The translations under genes and the position numbers were made by a program. Source: Roseibacillus sp. (GTDB lineage Bacteria > Verrucomicrobiota > Verrucomicrobiia > Verrucomicrobiales > Akkermansiaceae). From it: 32,754 nt of DNA. Shown one piece after another: positions 184-15,620 of the stretch. A model generated the notes under the pieces. It ran no database searches. It saw nothing but the letters and a program-made list of their open reading frames with translations, and had not been told where the DNA came from. Each line of letters begins with the position of its first letter. Position 1 is the first letter of the stretch. The stretch is taken from assembly GCA_002709915.1 (NCBI GenBank), contig PARF01000079.1, positions 1 to 32,754 on the forward strand, read 5' to 3'.

Positions 184-1014
184 CTAGCCTCCTGCAAAGG
201 GAGGGAAAAGGGTTACTTTATCCTCTTCAGTGAGAGGCTGATTCCAAGATTTGAATTCATCATTGATAGCGACTTTCACCGAATCGATTTCAAGGGAAAG
301 CGCCCGGGATAGACGCAGTTCTTCCCAGAGACCCGCAGCTGTGACTGACCGTGTCTGGAACTCTTCGGAATGACAGCCTGCGTCTTCCCTCAGGACTCCG
401 CAGTATTCGACGAAGACTTTTTTAAGAGTTCGTCCGTGATTGAGGCTCAGGCGCGCTTCCTCAAGGTCTTCGGGGCGGTTGCAGTTATCCAGAGCCGATA
501 GTTCGGGTAGTTCAATTTCCTTGCGGTTCAAAGTGGAGAGGAATCGACGTGCACAACGGATGCCCTCGGAGAGCACCTTTTTCAGAGAGGGATGGGCGGA
601 GGGCTCGTAAATCGTGCACAGAGGTTCGGGTTTTCCGTCGAAGCGGCTGGTGAAGCAGGTCGCATCGCTGGAGGGGGCTCTGGATTCCACCAGATATTTC
701 AGGGTGGATGAGGTAAGAAAGGGCAGGTCACAGGCAGTGACGAGCCACGCAGCCTCAGGCGAATGGCGGAAAGCGGCTTCCAGTCCAGCCAACGGACCGG
801 CATTATCTCGCAGGTCCTGAATGGTCGGATGGTTATAATTCCGGGTGTCATCTCCTGCGATGGCCAGATAAGACTGTGCGGTAACTGCTCCAAGAAGTTC
901 CATTCCACTGTCGCGCATGGAGAGCCCATCAACAATCTTCAGGTCAGCCTTGTCACGGCCCATCCGGGAGCTTTTCCCTCCTGCAAGGAGGAGACCGTAG
1001 GTGGGGGTCCTCAC
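184..1014 (-). CDS. mobA: Molybdenum cofactor guanylyltransferase (MobA) fused to a C-terminal MoaD-like sulfur-carrier domain
   Basis: N-terminal LLAGGKSSRMGRDKADL nucleotidyltransferase motif and DLPFLT; C-terminal ~80 aa end in VTLFPPFAGG*, the MoaD/ThiS-like di-Gly terminus; adjacent to moaC and moeA. Confidence 0.85.
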   Translation of the reverse strand: MRTPTYGLLLAGGKSSRMGRDKADLKIVDGLSMRDSGMELLGAVTAQSYLAIAGDDTRNYNHPTIQDLRDNAGPLAGLEAAFRHSPEAAWLVTACDLPFLTSSTLKYLVESRAPSSDATCFTSRFDGKPEPLCTIYEPSAHPSLKKVLSEGIRCARRFLSTLNRKEIELPELSALDNCNRPEDLEEARLSLNHGRTLKKVFVEYCGVLREDAGCHSEEFQTRSVTAAGLWEELRLSRALSLEIDSVKVAINDEFKSWNQPLTEEDKVTLFPPFAGG

Positions 1015-1496
1015 GAAGTCTGAGTGGGGGAAAAATCGCTTTTACCTCCTCGCTTTTCCTCAAGCTGAAGGCTGGTGATTTCGATCGCCGGGTTAAGTCC
1101 CTTGCACATGTCGTAGACAGTCAGCGCGGCAACGGAGGCGCCGGTAAGGGCTTCCATCTCGACTCCTGTCCGGCTGCTGGTTGAGCATTCACACTCTACT
1201 TTGAGCGAGTGATCGTCGTGGGGATCAATCTTCACATTACACTTGTCCAGGGGGAGAGGATGACAGAGGGGAATAAGGGACGAGGTTTGCTTGGCGGCCA
1301 TGATGCCTGCCAGAATTGCAGTATTAAGGATGGAGCCCTTTTTGTTCTGGAAACCCTCTTCCTTGAGCTGGCACAGGAGTTCAGATCCGAGAACGATACT
1401 GCAGCCAGCTCGCGCATACCGGCTGGTAACAGCCTTTGCGCCAACATCAACCATCCTAGGATGGCCTGCTTCATCCAGATGAGAGTGTTCGCTCAC
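1011..1496 (-). CDS. moaC: Cyclic pyranopterin monophosphate synthase MoaC
   Basis: HLDEAGHPRMVDVGAKAVTSRYARA, LIPLCHPLPLDKC, EMEALTGASVAALTVYDMCKG, EKRGGKS motifs of MoaC; 4-bp overlap with mobA. Confidence 0.93.
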   Translation of the reverse strand: MSEHSHLDEAGHPRMVDVGAKAVTSRYARAGCSIVLGSELLCQLKEEGFQNKKGSILNTAILAGIMAAKQTSSLIPLCHPLPLDKCNVKIDPHDDHSLKVECECSTSSRTGVEMEALTGASVAALTVYDMCKGLNPAIEITSLQLEEKRGGKSDFSPTQTS

Positions 1497-1546
1497 GGTA
1501 TTAGGCTAGGACAATGGTGAAAAAAAACGAGAGGATTTACTTCAAG

Positions 1547-2737
1547 TCAGAGCCACGACCAATACCGGGTTAGGGCACCTTTGGGAAAGGAACCTCGCCC
1601 AGCGGGGAGCTCGATAAATCCATCAGATTCAATGGCAGAAGCAAAGTCCCCGGAATTTGCGGGGGGGATAGGTTCGGCGACAATGCATGCATCTTCCTGC
1701 CTTGTTTTGACCGGGAGGCTGTAGGAAAAGGATGAATCGAAGGTGAACTTGGAAGAGAGTGACACTATCTGCGATGAGTGGCTTTGTCTGAGAGCAGCTT
1801 TGAGAAAGGGCAGGACGTAGCGATGGAAGGTAATTTGAACCGACATTGGATTGCCCGGGAGAGCAAAGACGGAGGGAATTCCTTCCCAGAAAGCCAGGGG
1901 CTTGCCGGGGCGCTGAGCAACTCCGTGGAAGGATGGAGGTCCAAACATTTTCTCCATGGCTGGTCGGACGAAGTCGTATTTACCCTTCGAGATTCCACCG
2001 CAGAGGATAAGGAGATCACAATGTCGTTGTCTTTCCACCGCAGTGAAGGTGGCCAAGGGATCGTCCGGCAGGTGCTGATAATGAACTAATTCGGCACCGG
2101 CCTCGAAAAGGGCAGCGTGGAGGGCTGCAGCATTGGATTGACGGATTTCGTGATCTGCCGGAGTGGACTTGGGGTCGACCACCTCGTCGCCGGTAGTGAA
2201 AAGAGAGACACGGGGTCGTTTCACAACTTGCAGTCTAGTAGCGCCTACGGTGGCCGCGACAGCAGCTACGCGAGAATCAATGACGGTGTCTGATGGAACC
2301 AGAATCGCACCGGCTTCGTAGTCACTGGCCCGTCGGTGAATGAAGCGTCCCCGGATGGCTGAACCGGCTTCAATCGCGAAGTGATGATCCTGCCGTGTGA
2401 CCTGCTCGTAGGGTATGACGGTATCGCAGTCGGGTGGGAGGCAGGCTCCAGTCATGACTTCCCAGCAGTGTCCTGGTGGAGTCGCCTGCGGTGCCGGAGC
2501 TCCAGCTGGATGCTCGCCCACAATTGCGAGAGTCGGGTGTTCCTCAAGATCGCGTTCTTTACAGCATATGCCATCCATCATGACCCGGTCATAGGGAGGA
2601 AGAGGTCTGTCAGCTACAAGGGGGCGTGCGAGGACTCTTCCTCCAGCATTTTCCAGAGGCACGTCTTCCTCCCCGAGATCCGGGATAGCGGACAGCGTGA
2701 TTTCTTCTGCAGCCTGGGGAGTGATGAGAGAATTCAT
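1547..2737 (-). CDS. moeA: Molybdopterin molybdenumtransferase MoeA (alternative start at 2749)
   Basis: EDVPLENAGGRVLARPLVADRPLPPYDRVMMDG, FTTGDEVV, LCGGISKGKYDFV, QRPGKPLAFW, ALPGNPMSVQ motifs. Confidence 0.92.
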   Translation of the reverse strand: MNSLITPQAAEEITLSAIPDLGEEDVPLENAGGRVLARPLVADRPLPPYDRVMMDGICCKERDLEEHPTLAIVGEHPAGAPAPQATPPGHCWEVMTGACLPPDCDTVIPYEQVTRQDHHFAIEAGSAIRGRFIHRRASDYEAGAILVPSDTVIDSRVAAVAATVGATRLQVVKRPRVSLFTTGDEVVDPKSTPADHEIRQSNAAALHAALFEAGAELVHYQHLPDDPLATFTAVERQRHCDLLILCGGISKGKYDFVRPAMEKMFGPPSFHGVAQRPGKPLAFWEGIPSVFALPGNPMSVQITFHRYVLPFLKAALRQSHSSQIVSLSSKFTFDSSFSYSLPVKTRQEDACIVAEPIPPANSGDFASAIESDGFIELPAGRGSFPKGALTRYWSWL

Positions 2738-2818
2738 GAACGTCACCATTTCACAGTGAATGGATGAATACCCAAGTATTTAGTTGCGAGATGGCGTTGC
2801 TACGCTTGGCTTGGGTCG

Positions 2819-3811
2819 ATGCTGCTGGATGAGTATGATCGACCGCTTCGGGACCTCCGCATCTCCGTCACCGACCGGTGTAATTTTCGCTGCCGCTACT
2901 GCATGCCGGCAGAGGTGTTTGGTCCCGGTTACCGCTTCCTGCAGCGGAAAGATCTTCTCACTTATGAGGAGATTGAGAATCTGGCAGGGCTGGTCGCCGG
3001 CCTCGGAGTGCGGAAATTCCGTTTAACGGGAGGAGAGCCTCTCCTGCGGCAGGGGCTGGAGGAGTTGGTAATGATGCTGTCCAACCTCGAAGGCGTTGAG
3101 GATCTTGCAATGACGACCAACGGAGTGCTCCTTGCAGCCTACGCGGCGAAATTGCGGCGAGCTGGCTTGCACCGGGTGACGGTTAGTCTGGATGCTCTGG
3201 ATAGAAAGGTTTTCGGACAGATGAATGGGGTGGGAGCAAGGGTGGAAAGAGTGCTGGATGGAATCGAGCAAGCGCTCTCTGAAGGGTTGGGCGTCAAAAT
3301 CAATACGGTCGTGCAACAAGGAATCAATGAGAGTGAGATCTTGCCGCTTGTCCGCTGGGGCAGCGAGCGAGATATACCAGTGAGGTTCATTAAATACATG
3401 GATGTCGGTGAGACTAACGGGTGGCGGATGGAGCATGTCGTTCCCAGCGCAGAGGTTTTCGAGATGATTGCGGCAGAGTTTCCCCTGAACAAACTTGAGC
3501 CTGCTCACCGAGGCGAGGTTGCGCGGCGTTACCAGATCGGGAGGGGGAAGGCAGAAGTTGGGTTTATTTCGTCGGTGACTGAACCATTCTGCGGTGATTG
3601 CAATCGTCTCCGTCTTTCTGCTGAGGGCAAACTGTATACCTGCCTCTTTGCCGAGAGCGGATTTGATGTCCGGGAACTGCTGAGGGCGGGCAAAGAGGAA
3701 ACTCTGGGCCTTGCGATTCGAGGCGTATGGGCTGATCGCAGTGATCGTTACTCGGAGCGGCGGGGGGCAGGAAAAAACCAGAAGGTAGAAATGAGCTATA
3801 TAGGAGGATAG
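2819..3811 (+). CDS. moaA: GTP 3',8-cyclase MoaA (radical SAM)
   Basis: DLRISVTDRCNFRCRYCMP (CxxxCxxC), FRLTGGEPLLR, C-terminal FCGDCNRLRLSAEGKLYTCLF cluster motif and terminal GG. Confidence 0.95.
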   Translation: MLLDEYDRPLRDLRISVTDRCNFRCRYCMPAEVFGPGYRFLQRKDLLTYEEIENLAGLVAGLGVRKFRLTGGEPLLRQGLEELVMMLSNLEGVEDLAMTTNGVLLAAYAAKLRRAGLHRVTVSLDALDRKVFGQMNGVGARVERVLDGIEQALSEGLGVKINTVVQQGINESEILPLVRWGSERDIPVRFIKYMDVGETNGWRMEHVVPSAEVFEMIAAEFPLNKLEPAHRGEVARRYQIGRGKAEVGFISSVTEPFCGDCNRLRLSAEGKLYTCLFAESGFDVRELLRAGKEETLGLAIRGVWADRSDRYSERRGAGKNQKVEMSYIGG

Positions 3812-3816
3812 GAGTT

Positions 3817-4308
3817 ATGGATTGGGAAATTAATATCATTCATTTATTTGTTTCAGGTGGACACAACTATCGGGGGCGGCATGGCAAAGGCTCCCTCGAT
3901 CATCAAATAGAGGATCCTGATCTCATTGAATGTGTGGCGGAAAGGGGGATCCGAGGAGACCGGTTTTTTGACCATCAGGAGAACTTCAAGGGCCAGATCA
4001 CGTTTTTCGATCATGAGGTCTACAACGATGTGAAAAAGGCGTTTGGACTGCCAGACCTCGCTGCCTCGGTCTTTCGCAGGAATGTGGTGCTGAGGGGAGT
4101 GCCTCTTTCGGAGCTCATCGGAAAGCGTTTCACGATCGGGGGCCTCGAGTTCGAGGGAACCGAGGAAGCGGCCCCCTGTTACTGGATGAACGAGGCCGCA
4201 GCGGACGGAGTGCATGAATTCCTCAAAGGTCAGGGAGGACTCCGCGCCCGCATCCTGAGTGGAGGAACGCTGAAGAAGGGGATAAGCTCTCTTTCTCTGG
4301 TTCCCTAA
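3817..4308 (+). CDS. MOSC domain-containing protein
   Basis: GIRGDRFFDH, VFRRNVVLRGVPLSELIGKRFTIGGLEFEGTEEAAPCYWM (MOSC pattern); starts 5 bp after the moaA stop with a GGAG upstream. Confidence 0.8.
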   Translation: MDWEINIIHLFVSGGHNYRGRHGKGSLDHQIEDPDLIECVAERGIRGDRFFDHQENFKGQITFFDHEVYNDVKKAFGLPDLAASVFRRNVVLRGVPLSELIGKRFTIGGLEFEGTEEAAPCYWMNEAAADGVHEFLKGQGGLRARILSGGTLKKGISSLSLVP

Positions 4309-7823: not shown

Positions 7824-9185
7824 TCAGGTCCACAGGTCGGAGATCACCCCGGAGCTGTCCGCAAAGGAATTGATCTCTGCTCCCATCAATTGAGCCATGG
7901 TGAGCCACATGTTAGAGTTGAGAGTGCCACTCTTGCATTTGATGAACCTGCCCTGCTTGATCTGTCCCTGCGCACCACCGGCGAGAATGAAAGGTAGATC
8001 ATAAAACTGGTGAGTTGCGCCATCACCCAGAGCGGCCCCATAGGAGACCAGCGAATTATCGAGCATCGTGCTTCCGTCCGCCTCGCGTATCTCCTTCATT
8101 CTCCTCAACATGTAGGCGTACTGCTCAAGGTGAAAGATATCGATCTTCTGAACCTCCTTCCATCCTTCTCCCTTCTGGTTATGGGTCATGTTGTGGTGTT
8201 GGACCGGTTTATCAAACACGCCCTCATACATGAGTGTTGCGTCCCAGCGCTCTGGCCCGATCATGAAAGTGCTGATGTTCGTCATGCCCATCTGGAAGGC
8301 GAGGAGCATCAGGTCTGTCTGCAGGCGAATGTATTCACCGCGGGGTAGAATTTCGTCCTTTGGGATTCGGATGTCCGCCTTTGCGATTCGCTCCTTCTGT
8401 TTGGCGATTCGAATTTCGACATTGCGAATCATCTCCATGAACTCGCCCAAGGTCTCTCGGTCATCTGTGCCAAGTTTCTTCGAGAGGCTCTTGGCGTCGG
8501 CGAGCATCAGGGAAGAGACATCACTGAGGTGAGACTGAAAATTATCGGCCTTAAAGAGGCGCTCGTAAAGTTTCTGAGGATCCTTGATGGAAGGAGCAAT
8601 CTTGTCCGGACCATACCATGAGATGTTATCGAAGTAGATGGGTTCCTTGGGGGCCCGGAAACCATTGCAGCTTATCTCGAGAGTTTTGAATACGGTGGAA
8701 TTTCCGACATGATCGCCGATAACCTGGTCGAGGCTGCGACCGTTGGGATAGCGCCATCCTTTTTCGGTGGCCTGCTCAGGAGAGACACTGGTGAGATAGC
8801 AGGAGGCCCCCTGTGCGTGAACGTCCTGTCCGTTCTTGAAGGTACGTTCCATGCCGGTGACAAGAGTAATATCGTTCGCATGCTCACGCAGGGGTTGCAT
8901 TGAAGAGCTGAACTCCAGAGGGTAGATACCAGCTTTGTTTTCAACGCGCTTCTGTTGCTTGGTCTTGTCTGCATTAAAGCCTCCCACGAATCCCGGGAGC
9001 TGGGCCTGCTCTTCACCGGGGAAAAAGCCGCGCCTGTTGATGCCGTTGGGAATGTAGAACATGACCATTTTCTTATCCGGCTTTTTCCGCTCCTTGAGGG
9101 ACTTGGCGGAGGCCAGTGAAGGCATGAAGGGCAATGTCAGTAGTGCGCCTTGGGTTCGCAGAAATTTCCTTCTCGAAAGCTTCAT
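7824..9185 (-). CDS. DUF1552 domain-containing secreted protein (Tat-like signal)
   Basis: MKLSRRKFLRTQGALLTLPFMPSLASA Tat-type signal from ATG at 9185, then MVMFYIPNGINRRGFFPGEE; adjacent to a DUF1592-type gene as is usual for this pair. Confidence 0.88.
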   Translation of the reverse strand: MKLSRRKFLRTQGALLTLPFMPSLASAKSLKERKKPDKKMVMFYIPNGINRRGFFPGEEQAQLPGFVGGFNADKTKQQKRVENKAGIYPLEFSSSMQPLREHANDITLVTGMERTFKNGQDVHAQGASCYLTSVSPEQATEKGWRYPNGRSLDQVIGDHVGNSTVFKTLEISCNGFRAPKEPIYFDNISWYGPDKIAPSIKDPQKLYERLFKADNFQSHLSDVSSLMLADAKSLSKKLGTDDRETLGEFMEMIRNVEIRIAKQKERIAKADIRIPKDEILPRGEYIRLQTDLMLLAFQMGMTNISTFMIGPERWDATLMYEGVFDKPVQHHNMTHNQKGEGWKEVQKIDIFHLEQYAYMLRRMKEIREADGSTMLDNSLVSYGAALGDGATHQFYDLPFILAGGAQGQIKQGRFIKCKSGTLNSNMWLTMAQLMGAEINSFADSSGVISDLWT

Positions 9186-9287
9186 GGGTGCTATATTTTC
9201 ATACCAGTGGCGCTCGAAAAGCCTTATTGTCCACGTTTTCGAATTACAAGGCTCTCCGATTGCTTGAAATACGGATTCTCTGTTCAC

Positions 9288-11042
9288 ATGAAAGCGGTCA
9301 TATCTCTCTACGCTTTAATACTTTTCGCTATCCCCGCACTGGGGGAGAGGCCACTTCGCCCCAATGTTCTGATTATCTTCACCGACGATCAGGGTTACGC
9401 AGACCTCGCGTGTTACGGTAACACGAAAAACAAGACTCCTCGTCTTGATCAACTAGCGAGGCAAGGAACGCGTTTTACTTCGTTCTACTCTCAAACGGTC
9501 TGTGGGCCCTCGCGATCAGCACTTCTTACTGGGCGCCAGCCACTGAGAAGTGGAGGCTGGGGAATGCCCGCGTCAGAGGTCACATGGGCAGAGTTGGCCC
9601 GTAAGGTGGGGTATCAGACGGCCTGTATTGGCAAATGGGATGTTTCCAACCGAAAGCCAATTGTAGACCGCATGCCTAACGCTCAGGGTTTTGAATATTA
9701 CTTTGGTGCTCTCGGGGCTAACGATAACGGATCAGTTCAATTCCACGAGAACAACAAGGCTGCAGGTAGCAGTCGGGACATGGGAGGGTTGGTGCGCCTT
9801 TACACGGAGAAGTCTATTGAGTTCCTCAAGCACAAGCGGGATCCTGAAAAGCCATTCATGCTCTACCTGGCGCATACCATGATGCACACAATTATTGATG
9901 CGTCACCCTCCTTCAAAGGAAAGTCGGAGGGAGGACTTTATGGGGACGTAGTGGAGGAATTCGATCATGAAACAGGAAGGCTACTCGATGTTTTGGATGA
10001 ACTGAATCTTTCTGAGAATACGCTTGTGATTTACACCAGTGATAATGGGCCATGGAACCAGGATAAATATACCAAGCGCAAGAGAGGGCATCCGGAGGGC
10101 TCGATTTTCTGGGGAGAAGCTGGACCACTTCGGAATGGCAAAGGGTCTCCCTATGAGGCGGGTTACCGTCTCCCATGTATTGTGCGATGGCCAGGGATAG
10201 TGCCGTCTAATCGTATCAGCGACGCCATTTTTGCCAGCATAGATTTTCTTCCCACCTTTGCTGAACTCTGTGGCTTTGAGACCCCGAATGACCGTCAAAT
10301 TGATGGCATTGATCAGACCAGGCTGCTTACAGGTAAAACCGAGAAGGGCCGTGACTATTTTTATTTCAATCGCGCCGGGGTCCGGAAGGGTAAGTGGAAA
10401 TATCTGCGTCCGGATGCGCATTTTCATGGCTATGCTGTAGAGGATGGACGGAAGAAAGTAGATGAGCTCTATGATCTCGAGGTGGACCTTGGTGAGCGCC
10501 ATAATCTCGCTGAAAAGCATCCGGATATTGTATCAGAGCTAAAGAAGCTTATGAACCAGCTGGAATCCAAGAAGGTCACGGTGGATAAGCGTGATCAGTT
10601 TGAAATACGTCTCAATGACAGAGGCCCCCACCCGGAAAGTAGCAGCATCAATGTCAGTGTGGGGCAGCCGGGAGTGATATTTGAGGTTCGCGATGAATCG
10701 GGTATTGGTGGTGGTTCGATTCACCTGCTCAACGGGGAGTGGCCTGAGAAAGTTGTTCTACGCCTTCTTCTTTCCGGACTGGAAGGTTTTGAGGTTAAGG
10801 TGGGGGGCGAGATTTTCTCGGGCGCCTATCGTGGAAAGAACGCGCCGCAGTCGGGCAACTGCCTGCCGGTCAAGATGCTTGATGCAGAGGGAAGTCCACT
10901 CAGTGGGCGGTATCTGGTTGAGTCAGATAAAGGTGGGAATACGACCCGGAGGGAAGGGTATTATGAAATAGAGTTTCCTCAAGCGCTCCTGAACCCGGAG
11001 GTCCGAGCCATAGAGTTGTCCTGGGTGGACTTCTATCGTTGA
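9288..11042 (+). CDS. Sulfatase (alkaline phosphatase superfamily) with extra C-terminal beta-rich domain
   Basis: Signal peptide; RPNVLIIFTDDQGYADL; SQTVCGPSRSALLTGRQ (C-x-P-S-R formylglycine motif); YTSDNGPW. ATG at 9288 chosen over the longer 9150 ORF. Confidence 0.92.
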   Translation: MKAVISLYALILFAIPALGERPLRPNVLIIFTDDQGYADLACYGNTKNKTPRLDQLARQGTRFTSFYSQTVCGPSRSALLTGRQPLRSGGWGMPASEVTWAELARKVGYQTACIGKWDVSNRKPIVDRMPNAQGFEYYFGALGANDNGSVQFHENNKAAGSSRDMGGLVRLYTEKSIEFLKHKRDPEKPFMLYLAHTMMHTIIDASPSFKGKSEGGLYGDVVEEFDHETGRLLDVLDELNLSENTLVIYTSDNGPWNQDKYTKRKRGHPEGSIFWGEAGPLRNGKGSPYEAGYRLPCIVRWPGIVPSNRISDAIFASIDFLPTFAELCGFETPNDRQIDGIDQTRLLTGKTEKGRDYFYFNRAGVRKGKWKYLRPDAHFHGYAVEDGRKKVDELYDLEVDLGERHNLAEKHPDIVSELKKLMNQLESKKVTVDKRDQFEIRLNDRGPHPESSSINVSVGQPGVIFEVRDESGIGGGSIHLLNGEWPEKVVLRLLLSGLEGFEVKVGGEIFSGAYRGKNAPQSGNCLPVKMLDAEGSPLSGRYLVESDKGGNTTRREGYYEIEFPQALLNPEVRAIELSWVDFYR

Positions 11043-11174: not shown

Positions 11175-14072
11175 ATGCGATACGCAATCTTTTCAGAGAT
11201 ATACGGTAATCTTCAGGCGTGGAACGCTATCGTAGACGATTTCACGAGCCTCGGGGTAGACATGCCAATCTGTCTTGGCGACGTATCTGGGCACGGTGCA
11301 GGAACAGCAGAAATTCTGGAAGATCTGAGGGCTCGTACTGGAAACGTTGTTCTGGGGGACTGCGATGCGGCACTCGTGGGCTTACTGGGAGAAGCTCACC
11401 CGGACGAGGAAACAAACTACTGTATCAGGTGGACCCGTGAGCACCTTCATCAAGATGCCTTGTCTTATCTTGCGGAGCGCCCACTCGCTCTGGAGACCGG
11501 GGGAATCCTTTTTGTGCACGGAGAGTGCTCACAACCCGGACGCTATCGGGGCATTAGCAGTGAATCAGTGGCGCGTGAAAATCTGGAAGCAACCATGCAC
11601 AAGATCACATTCCTCGGGCATGCACAGGAGGCGGGTGTCTACCGGCAGCGGGCGCATGGGGTAATCGACAGGCTTCCAGCAGAAAACCGGAAGCTATCCA
11701 GTGACTGTCGATATCTCGTGAATGTAGGATCGGTGGGAGAGCCCGACTCAACAGAGGATCCGGCGGCGGCGTATGTTATCTATGACAACGAGACGCAGGA
11801 GCTCACTTTCCGGCGCGTAGCATTTGATGTTGCCGCCTACCAGGCGGACATACTCGACGCTGGCCTTTTTCTTCGTCCATGGTGCACCGATGGCGAGCAG
11901 AGAAATACTCCCGGGATGCCATCGTCCGGGTCCCTCGGTCTCGAGTATCGGGAGGAAGAGGCGGTGGTGGCGCTGGCGTCGATAGGAACGGTTGTGGAGC
12001 CTGCGGTCCAGTCGTCGGTGAACTATCCGGTTCGCCGGAGCCGGGGCGTGCTGGCATGGATGGCGCTGGTCTCTGTGATGGCATTGGCGGCAGGGGTAGG
12101 ACTTTTTTCCTATCAGGAAATCAGAAAACGGCAGGAGGCAGAGACCACTCAGGGAGGCAGAGAGGCGAGATCTCCTGGCGTGGCGTTGCCACAAGCGGAT
12201 CCCGAACGAGGTCGTCAGCCGCGGCCCCTCCCACAAAATGGCATTGAGCTGGCAAAGAAGCCACCCGCATTGGTCGATCTTCCGCAACGCAACGAAGAGC
12301 TGGTCAATCGTGATCCAGATCATTCTTCGGATGTCATTGCAGAGCATGATCCCGCCAAGGGCTCAGACCCACCAGCATCGGAGCTCACTCATCAATCAGA
12401 GCCAGCTGATACGCCTGAGCCTGCCGATCAGCCCGAGTCCACCGATACCCCGGAACAAGAGGTGGCGGAGACGGTTCTGCCCGAGGGAAAAGCACCCATA
12501 CCCCCGGAGCCAGCCGATGTGGCATCACTCCGGCCTCCTACTCGTAGCCTCATTTATTATGCGCCATTTGATGAAGATTCGACGGAGTTCCGGATACGTG
12601 ATCTTTCCGGAGGAGAGCGCGACTTGGACGCCACCAGTGGGAGTCCTGGAATCCTTGGTCGGATCGGTATGGCCTGTCGGCTCGTGGAGGAAAACGGCAG
12701 TGAAGCCATGCGCTCACCGGTGAAGCCTCTTCCCGAGTTGAAGGACGTCACAATGGCTTTCTGGCTGAAGCGTCCCGATACCGCCCTGCAGACTCCTTCC
12801 GAGCCGGACGGACCGACTGAAATCAAGAAGCTGACCGATGCGACACTTCTCTCCTTTGATAGTGTTGGAGAAGTCCGGGTAGTCGATGACCGGATCGAGG
12901 CAAAGGTTGGAGAGGGCGCGCCGGCCACTATTGGATTTCCTCAGGATTTGCTCTGGCATCATATCCTCGTCGAGCGAGTGAATGGGGAAACATCGATCTG
13001 GCTGGATCACAGGGTGCAATCCAAGATCATCCGAGGGGTTGCTGGACCTTCTGCAGCCGAGGGGGCAGCGGTTCAGGTGGGCAGTAAGAATGCTGACTTT
13101 TGTATCGATGAAGCTGCCATATGGGCGCGCGGTTTTACCGCCGATGAGCGTTGTGTCCTGTATCGTCTCGGACGATTTGACACTCCCATCATGGCGCCTC
13201 CAAGGTCGATCGCCTACTGGGGTTTCGACAAGAGTAAGCTGGGAAAAGGAGTCTTTGGAGACTACATCGGAACCCGGCCGCTGGGATCGTACGCCCGGTG
13301 GAAGCCGGCCAAGCCCCTTGCTCCTGATCCGGTTCCGATGACGAGAAAGAGAAACTTGGTCGCGGCACAGGTATCCCACGTTGCTGAGAGTAAGGAAGGG
13401 GCAGGCAGCTTTGAAATGAAAGGGGACAGCCCTTTTACCTACGAGGGCTGGTTCAAGCCAGGACGGCTGACGGCCGGCACTCTGGGAGGGACGGTTCCCT
13501 CTACGAATGACAAAGGGGAGGCTGGCTGGCGACTTGCCCTCAGTCCGGGGAAGAGTGGAAAAGGGTTTCTGGCCTTTATCTATGATACCGGATCAGAGAA
13601 AACACAGGCAATCGCCGAGAACGTGTCCATATATGATGGGCTTCCACACCACCTTGCTGCGGTCTGGAATCCCAGATCCTCGGAAACCCATGGGAGTATG
13701 AGAATTTTTCTGGATAACAAGCTCGTTGCATCTGAGCAGCTGTCCCTCGAAGACTTGGAGCCGGCAGCCGGTCAGCACTTCAGGATAGCAGTTGGCGGCT
13801 CGGCAGTGGTCGTCGATGAATTGCGCTTCACAACTGGCTCTCTAAGGCCCAGTGAATTTTTGACGAAAGGGGAGGACCGGCCCGCGGCAGGACCGCCGAT
13901 TGCTGGGAATGGTGGAAGAAGGGTAGCGCCAGCTGCAAGACCGGGCGAATCGCCTTTTCAACGGGCAGCCCGCGAATTAGAGGAGCGAAAGGCCGAACAG
14001 GCTGCGGAACGAGAGCGCAAGAGAGCGGAGGAAGCCAGGCGGCGCCGCGAGGGTTTCGGAGTGCGAGACTGA
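11175..14072 (+). CDS. Degenerate metallophosphoesterase domain - TM helix - Pro/Glu-rich linker - two LamG-like domains - charged tail
   Basis: MRYAIFSEIYGNLQAW...CLGDVSGHG...VVLGDCDAAL...FVHGE...FLGHAQ align with YfcE-type phosphoesterase landmarks; TM GVLAWMALVSVMALAAGVGLFSY (~12047-12115); two LamG-like segments (IYYAPFDEDSTEF..., IAYWGFDKSKLGK...). Confidence 0.8.
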   Translation: MRYAIFSEIYGNLQAWNAIVDDFTSLGVDMPICLGDVSGHGAGTAEILEDLRARTGNVVLGDCDAALVGLLGEAHPDEETNYCIRWTREHLHQDALSYLAERPLALETGGILFVHGECSQPGRYRGISSESVARENLEATMHKITFLGHAQEAGVYRQRAHGVIDRLPAENRKLSSDCRYLVNVGSVGEPDSTEDPAAAYVIYDNETQELTFRRVAFDVAAYQADILDAGLFLRPWCTDGEQRNTPGMPSSGSLGLEYREEEAVVALASIGTVVEPAVQSSVNYPVRRSRGVLAWMALVSVMALAAGVGLFSYQEIRKRQEAETTQGGREARSPGVALPQADPERGRQPRPLPQNGIELAKKPPALVDLPQRNEELVNRDPDHSSDVIAEHDPAKGSDPPASELTHQSEPADTPEPADQPESTDTPEQEVAETVLPEGKAPIPPEPADVASLRPPTRSLIYYAPFDEDSTEFRIRDLSGGERDLDATSGSPGILGRIGMACRLVEENGSEAMRSPVKPLPELKDVTMAFWLKRPDTALQTPSEPDGPTEIKKLTDATLLSFDSVGEVRVVDDRIEAKVGEGAPATIGFPQDLLWHHILVERVNGETSIWLDHRVQSKIIRGVAGPSAAEGAAVQVGSKNADFCIDEAAIWARGFTADERCVLYRLGRFDTPIMAPPRSIAYWGFDKSKLGKGVFGDYIGTRPLGSYARWKPAKPLAPDPVPMTRKRNLVAAQVSHVAESKEGAGSFEMKGDSPFTYEGWFKPGRLTAGTLGGTVPSTNDKGEAGWRLALSPGKSGKGFLAFIYDTGSEKTQAIAENVSIYDGLPHHLAAVWNPRSSETHGSMRIFLDNKLVASEQLSLEDLEPAAGQHFRIAVGGSAVVVDELRFTTGSLRPSEFLTKGEDRPAAGPPIAGNGGRRVAPAARPGESPFQRAARELEERKAEQAAERERKRAEEARRRREGFGVRD

Positions 14073-14078
14073 CCCCCG

Positions 14079-15620
14079 CTAGAATCGGTATCCTTTGGCC
14101 TCCTCGTAGGATCTGAGTTCCTCAATCTCTCGGATCGAACGTTTCGTATAGTTTTTCATGAAGAGTTGAAGGGCTTCAGGATCATGGCGGTCATCGAAGG
14201 CAGGTAGTGCGGGATCCGCGGTATGAAGCATAAATTCCCTGAGATGCTCTCGGAACTTGCCGACCGGGATGGGGTTCCTTGGGGGTAAGGACCCTGACGC
14301 CAGCAGGTTGGATAGACAGTGGGGGTCTTTACGGAGATCATAGAACTCCTCGACTGACCGGAAAGAGAGATGACGGACGCGGCGTTCCATGAGGGGGTGG
14401 GCCCTCGCCAACTCGCGCAACACATCAAATCCGTTCCACTGCCTGGGGAAATTCCGTGAGCCGTCAGCCCACGGATTGAAGACATACGCCCATTCGCGTG
14501 ACAGAATTCCTCTCATTGGGAACGCATCCCTGCCGTGAATATGGAAGAATTGTGTCAGGACGTAATCCCGGTCTTCTTGTTGGTTCCCTTGGAGGATCGA
14601 GAGAAAGGAGCGCCCGTCAGCTTGGGGAGCAGGGGGTAATTTTACGGCCTCCAGAAAGGTTGGCTGAAGGTCTACGCAGGAAAGCATGTGCTTCCTGTCG
14701 TCCTGACCGCCGGAAACTACCCCGGGCCATCGTATAATCCAGGGAGAGCGGGTGCTGTCGGGATAGCAATTTGCCTTTACCCCCGGGAACGCCATCCCGT
14801 GGTCGGACAGGAACATTACGATCGTATTATCTGCGAGTCCGGCCTGATCCAGCTCCTGCAGTACGGCGCCTACCATGTCGTCTGTCCGGCGCACGGATCC
14901 CGCATAGCGAGCGAGATGTTTGCGGATCTCTGGTGCGTCGGGAAGTCCAGCGCTGATCCTAACTTCGGATGGGTCGTAGCTTTGCGATGATTCCGCCCGC
15001 TCGTAATGAGGATTGCCCGGGTGACGGCCCTTCGGTCCGGGGGTGGCGAACGGGTCGTGAGGGTCGTGAGTATTTGCCATCAGGAAGAAGGGTTGGCGCG
15101 CTGACTTTGCGCTTGCGAAAAAGTCCCGTGCGAAACGGCGATAGATCGCGGGGTCTCGCCCCCAGAGGTTCTCGTCGCCCTTACCTTGCCATGTGTATGT
15201 TACCGACCACCTGAAAAGCTCCTGTTGGTTAAGGGGCTTTCCGATAGTTCCACAGAGAAAGCCAGCTGCATTCAGGAGGGAAGGAAGGTTGGGAGTTCCC
15301 GGACGGATGCGCTGAAACCCCTCTGCGCCATTGTTTTGAGGATAGAGACCGGTCAGCATCACGCTACGGGAGGGTGTACAGATGGCAATGTTGGCATAAC
15401 CGTGCCAGAACTGGATACCTTCCTCAGCCAGTCGGTCTATATTGGGGGAGACCCCCTCTGCTACGCCTCCAAAGCAGCCCGGAGAATCCCAGTTCATGTC
15501 GTCTGCAACCAGCCACAGAATATTTGGACGAGCGGGTGGATGGCGAAGCTGCTGTGCGGCGGCAACCGGGGTCAGCAGTGCGACAGCGATCAGTGTAATA
15601 ACGGCTACAGGACGCATCAT
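14079..15620 (-). CDS. Sulfatase
   Basis: Signal peptide; RPNILWLVADDMNWDSPGCFGG; AICTPSRSVMLTGLYPQNNG (CTPSR motif); FLSDHGMAFPG. Confidence 0.93.
   Translation of the reverse strand: MMRPVAVITLIAVALLTPVAAAQQLRHPPARPNILWLVADDMNWDSPGCFGGVAEGVSPNIDRLAEEGIQFWHGYANIAICTPSRSVMLTGLYPQNNGAEGFQRIRPGTPNLPSLLNAAGFLCGTIGKPLNQQELFRWSVTYTWQGKGDENLWGRDPAIYRRFARDFFASAKSARQPFFLMANTHDPHDPFATPGPKGRHPGNPHYERAESSQSYDPSEVRISAGLPDAPEIRKHLARYAGSVRRTDDMVGAVLQELDQAGLADNTIVMFLSDHGMAFPGVKANCYPDSTRSPWIIRWPGVVSGGQDDRKHMLSCVDLQPTFLEAVKLPPAPQADGRSFLSILQGNQQEDRDYVLTQFFHIHGRDAFPMRGILSREWAYVFNPWADGSRNFPRQWNGFDVLRELARAHPLMERRVRHLSFRSVEEFYDLRKDPHCLSNLLASGSLPPRNPIPVGKFREHLREFMLHTADPALPAFDDRHDPEALQLFMKNYTKRSIREIEELRSYEEAKGYRF

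Follow-up and report, generated by a model that had tools for sequence, protein, structure and literature searches.

A probable pseudoenzyme receptor with a degenerate metallophosphoesterase head, of single origin in one Akkermansiaceae genus

What does a phosphoesterase domain do once residues that hold its metals have been replaced? The question is raised by one gene in a 32,754-nucleotide stretch of Roseibacillus sp. DNA (contig PARF01000079.1 of GCA_002709915.1; hereafter the window), part of a 3.6 Mb assembly of 93 contigs (G000). A first-pass annotation described a YfcE-like metallophosphoesterase (MPE) domain with several metal ligands replaced, joined by a transmembrane (TM) helix to two LamG-like domains, and proposed a catalytically dead sensor or scaffold. 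We think it likely that the gene encodes a pseudoenzyme receptor, with a dead cytosolic MPE domain, one TM helix and two periplasmic LamG domains, which has a single origin from an intact MPE–TM–LamG protein. The head probably serves in binding or signalling, not in cleavage.

The proposed architecture holds along the whole protein (Table 1). Residues 1–205 match Metallophos_2 (PF12850; 36.6 bits against a cut-off of 27), which places the head in the MPE superfamily, and residues 751–885 match Laminin_G_3 (PF13385; 42.3 bits against 27.6), which identifies the second LamG domain. The first LamG domain of the window protein has no Pfam match; it is recognized from two congeneric homologues (L044 and L090), each with two LamG stretches, and from a model with local pLDDT mostly 70–88. 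Overall pLDDT of the LamG model is 58, too weak for an argument about a ligand site. The single TM helix is evident from hydropathy, and congeners have a helix at the matching place. The protein begins directly with the MPE domain, has no signal sequence and carries RRSR on the N side of the helix; we infer that the N terminus is inside and the LamG domains outside. The charged tail and the two flanking sulfatases are also present as annotated. Elsewhere in the window (184–4308) lies a group of molybdenum cofactor genes encoding a MobA–ThiS fusion, MoaC, MoeA and MoaA.

Table 1. Features of the receptor gene and its neighbours, in window coordinates
Feature	Position	Strand	Basis
Whole gene, putative pseudo-MPE / TM / LamG-LamG / charged tail, 965 aa	11175..14072	+	Intact ORF; start the same, length nearly so, in congeners
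Cytosolic pseudo-MPE domain (predicted), aa 1-236	11175..11882	+	Pfam Metallophos_2, phmmer, AF2, Foldseek
E8-I-Y10 replacing D-x-H (site-1 metal ligands)	11196..11204	+	Homologue comparison
D36 kept, bridging Asp of GD motif	11280..11282	+	Invariant in all homologues
D62-C63 replacing N-H of GNHD (site-2 ligand, catalytic His)	11358..11363	+	Homologue comparison
H115 kept (VHG)	11517..11519	+	Homologue comparison
H149 kept, Q151 replacing second His of GHxH	11619..11627	+	Q, R, G, I, S or A at 151 among clade members
Single TM helix, aa ~290-314, RRSR before it	12042..12116	+	Hydropathy; congeners alike in position
Pro/Glu-rich linker, aa 319-450	12129..12524	+	Poor conservation, omega 0.22-0.43
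LamG-like domain 1, aa 459-670	12549..13184	+	Modelled beta sandwich; Laminin_G in homologues L044, L090; omega 0.09-0.115
LamG-like domain 2, aa 675-900	13197..13874	+	Pfam Laminin_G_3, E 1.1e-10; omega 0.055-0.115
Charged C-terminal tail GESPFQRAARELEERKAEQAAERERKRAEEARRRREGFGVRD, conserved; also borne by a TM kinase encoded at another locus of the genome	13944..14069	+	
Upstream sulfatase ORF, conserved neighbour	9150..11042	+	Pfam Sulfatase; synteny
Downstream convergent sulfatase, conserved neighbour	14079..15620	-	Pfam Sulfatase; synteny

The head is confidently modelled as an MPE fold. AlphaFold2, with a 72-sequence alignment, gave a pLDDT of 92.6 and a pTM of 0.90. The best phmmer match among solved structures is 3rqz_A (residues 1–231, E 8e-22), and Foldseek matched the model to 3rqz (TM 0.83), SapH (3qfm, TM 0.72), and then YfcE and VPS29. 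The MPE fold and layout of the earlier description stand, but the closest relatives are 3rqz and the SapH group and not YfcE itself, whose NCBIfam equivalog (PRK09453) scores 16.9 bits against a cut-off of 117. Likeness to VPS29 goes no further than the common fold (TMq ~0.42, 11–13% identity).

The catalytic motifs of the window protein read FSEIYGN (E8, Y10), CLGDVSG (D36), LGDCDAA (D62, C63), FVHGE (H115) and FLGHAQ (H149, Q151). The three annotated substitutions, D-x-H to E-x-Y, GNHD to GDCD and GHTH to GHAQ, are thus as read in the reading frame, as are the retained GDxxG and VHG. From general knowledge of the superfamily, we take D8, H10 and H151 to be ligands of metal site 1, N62, H115 and H149 to be ligands of site 2, and D36 to be the bridge. 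All three ligands that serve site 1 only have been changed in the window protein. The signature of catalytic MPEs and class III PDEs, D-xn-GD-xn-GNH[E/D]-xn-H-xn-GHxH (PMC8366450), is broken in three places: E8 stands for D, GDCD for GNH[E/D] and GHAQ for GHxH.

The loss is shared by relatives, and it has one origin. Copies in 12 congeners (Roseibacillus-like Akkermansiaceae, Verrucomicrobiota: G001, G002, G003, G005, G006, G007, G008, G009 copy a, G010, G011, G013 and G014) also lack the canonical set, and none restores it. A window subclade of seven genomes has SEIYGN / GDCD / GH[AT][QR], and a sister subclade of four has SDIYGN / G[DYF]FD / GHA[GIS]. The G001 copy reads SDIYGN / GDHD / GHGA, and copy a of G009 reads SDIQGN / GDCD / GHGF. 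In a tree of the MPE domain the 13 degenerate copies form a single clade (support 99/98). Its nearest outgroup, G009 copy b, has the same MPE–TM–LamG–LamG plan and a related tail, with fully canonical motifs. In a scan of the genome collection, the 80 best loci showed degenerate motifs in this genus only, and in a second search the nearest members outside the clade, from other genera or G009 copy b, were all canonical (18 of 18). Because homologues outside the clade are canonical, the loss is derived, not refuted. From these sequences, we read the protein as a pseudoenzyme of single origin that arose once within one Akkermansiaceae genus. The clade thus presents a series of active sites, intact, partly degraded and further degraded, all within a single genus and a single architecture, which makes it possible to test directly the order in which ligands were lost and how replacement residues were gained.

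Chance, sequencing error or assembly error can be rejected as the source of the degenerate motifs, which recur in independent assemblies of the 12 congeners. The gene order around the receptor gene (DUF1552 protein, sulfatase, receptor, convergent sulfatase, DUF993-like protein, xylose-isomerase-like protein, GFO/IDH) is conserved, as far as contigs reach, in all congeners except G009 (11 genomes), and is absent at both G009 loci.

Could the head still be an enzyme, of an altered kind? Site 2 (D36, D62, H115 and H149) might hold one metal and, with a new general acid, support a slower or different phosphoester reaction. Indeed, no copy in the clade varies at D36, H115 or H149 (the bridging Asp and site-2 ligands), most members show the conservative change of Asn to Asp at position 62, and selection on the domain is strong. 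However, every copy has lost H10 and H151, D8 is lost in the window subclade, and position 151 is unconstrained. Cys or Phe has replaced the catalytic His63 in 11 of 12 orthologues. Moreover, Phe63 occurs in four members of the sister subclade, three of which also have Tyr or Phe at position 62, a change that would damage site 2 too. We consider an altered enzyme unlikely. The same residues qualify the pseudoenzyme receptor: with D36, H115 and H149 kept and D62 a possible ligand, one metal may still bind, and since position 62 is D, Y or F in the sister subclade, no single replaced pocket is kept clade-wide. Retained ligands do not, however, imply activity, because VPS29 has a pocket that can coordinate metals and is nevertheless judged inactive (PMC3101248).

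Nor does the head look like a decaying relic that drifts while only the LamG ectodomain works. By NG86, omega for the degenerate MPE domain is 0.064 within the window subclade, 0.119 within the sister subclade and 0.134 between them; between-clade synonymous distances are saturated, which makes this and the following between-clade ratios approximate. In the same order, the canonical PA14-type paralogue from the same genomes gives 0.049, 0.066 and 0.042, and the receptor linker gives 0.427, 0.221 and 0.292. Values for the LamG domains lie at 0.055–0.115. Drift would account for a head omega that exceeds the value of the canonical paralogue by a factor of about 1.3 to 3, and for motif residues that vary between subclades. 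It accounts poorly for an omega of 0.06–0.13 next to a far less constrained linker, for a fold predicted with high confidence, and for intact copies free of internal stops. Because the degenerate head is under purifying selection, a functional pseudoenzyme is likelier than decay, which we regard as improbable. Conserved loss of catalytic residues, a retained fold and purifying selection are thus found together in this domain, as expected of a pseudoenzyme, in which catalysis itself would have been lost; the first reading of a dead sensor or scaffold gains support accordingly from fold, ligand loss and selection.

Residues that distinguish the clade have also been fixed. Fourteen positions that are fixed in 94 canonical homologues are changed in the clade, and five of them are metal or catalytic positions (8, 10, 62, 63 and 151), fixation at 62 and 63 being in part a selection effect, since the 94 were largely picked by the presence of GNH[DE]; the other positions are unaffected. 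Y10 is invariant in all 12 orthologues compared. It is most improbable that the head is a structural plug that only sets membrane orientation or stability and has no specific partner: MPE–TM proteins are common in PVC bacteria and carry diverse ectodomains, which would suit a generic anchor, but residues that never vary in the clade and are seldom found outside it (among them Y10, G43, T44, D77, C118, G126 and W236) point to a specific surface or pocket that has been conserved.

How might such a pseudoenzyme receptor work? The ancestor would have been a membrane-anchored MPE–TM–LamG protein with intact catalytic residues. Its dinuclear metal centre would then have been lost and the fold kept as a binding module. 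The LamG pair may bind a periplasmic ligand, and glycans are the usual kind of LamG ligand. The TM helix could relay the ligand state to the MPE-fold domain, which would bind a protein or phospho-ligand without cutting it. The conserved tail probably docks the receptor to a partner or site that is also used by a tail-bearing TM kinase.

The tail provides the lead to this kinase. Its box, GESPxQRAxREL..., occurs on only two protein types among 145 family genomes, the receptor and a TM Ser/Thr kinase (L074:1925–4960, G000:C71, in the window genome). A 47-residue tail query matched 22 times, in 12 of the 15 genomes of the genus, and had no match in 43 genomes outside it; a 42-residue query across the 145 family genomes again gave 22 matches, all in those 12 genomes, and none in the remaining 133. 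Restriction to two protein types in 145 genomes, with kinase E values down to 1e-13, leads us to reject a low-complexity chance match as the main explanation of the tail. In G008 the tail lies on a 54-residue fragment at a contig end, and the next gene is the one that follows the kinase elsewhere, which fits the kinase. In G005 and G008 the kinase tails are closer to receptor tails (64–92%, over 36 residues only) than other kinase tails are. Co-conversion of tails within a genome was considered, yet over this short span the likeness is not specific to the receptor of the same genome.

The tail-bearing kinase has itself changed. HRD is kept in all genomes compared, but DFG, intact in G005, G006 and G008, has become NFG in exactly the seven genomes of the window subclade, with loss of a key catalytic residue. 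A second kinase lies nearby, downstream, and lacks its catalytic Asp: HRD is replaced by HQA in the window subclade, while three sister genomes have HRN or HRA. This second kinase is found at L074:5913–6500 and L166:3945–5999; the L166 copy has a TM helix and, by eye, C-type-lectin-like sequence. Of the five strong kinase matches in the window genome, all but these two are canonical. From these sequences, a pseudophosphatase/pseudokinase module is plausible. In its full form, a dead-enzyme membrane module in which the pseudophosphoesterase receptor and the NFG TM pseudokinase recognize each other, or a common periplasmic partner, through the genus-specific tail, alongside the second TM pseudokinase, and signal by assembly and not by catalysis, it is a tentative and rather doubtful extension. 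The coincidence of kinase and receptor changes weighs little statistically, because each happened once on the sampled tree. Against a partnership, as against the receptor reading at large, the kinase of G003 and G014 (L166 and L167) no longer has the tail box or most of its ectodomain, although its final residues, RRRKSPERPR, persist; in addition, the kinase gene is not linked to the receptor gene. A strict obligate receptor–kinase pair is not supported by these two tail-less kinases. Even so, the shared tail gives a concrete, testable hypothesis that the dead phosphoesterase has a membrane kinase as its partner.

Full-text searches of open-access papers gave no description of a bacterial pseudo-MPE. 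A PF12850 scan of the window genome did not return the receptor gene (head at 11175–11882), so family scans under-count pseudo-MPEs. We also found no paper on the MPE–TM proteins that occur widely in PVC bacteria with a variety of ectodomains. One of these, at L054:4978–7944 (G000:C11), is a canonical MPE–TM–PA14 paralogue conserved in the genus. The window protein shares the head–TM–ectodomain plan with these proteins (L090, L101 and the PA14 type among them) and, with L090, two LamG domains and a related tail, but all those examined have the full metal-ligand set.

Among solved structures, the nearest by both sequence and fold is 3rqz, a metallophosphoesterase of Sphaerobacter thermophilus. 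Unlike the window domain, which lacks the site-1 ligands, it has canonical motifs (SDVHAN / GNHD / GHTH). SapH/Spr1479, an asymmetric Ap4A hydrolase and phosphodiesterase, is also among the nearest; the solved chains of both, 239–270 residues long, lack a TM or LamG part. YfcE (1su1), a soluble canonical enzyme, has the superfamily and motif layout in common with the head but is more distant than either (TMq 0.43). The functional parallel lies with VPS29 (1w24 and 1z2w in the Foldseek search). This eukaryotic protein is small, soluble and still able to coordinate metals, and resembles the head at the level of fold only; it is a retromer subunit that has an MPE fold, is inactive as a phosphatase and acts as a rigid scaffold for binding proteins (PMC3101248). 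Eukaryotes thus already provide one example of an MPE-fold scaffold that has no activity.
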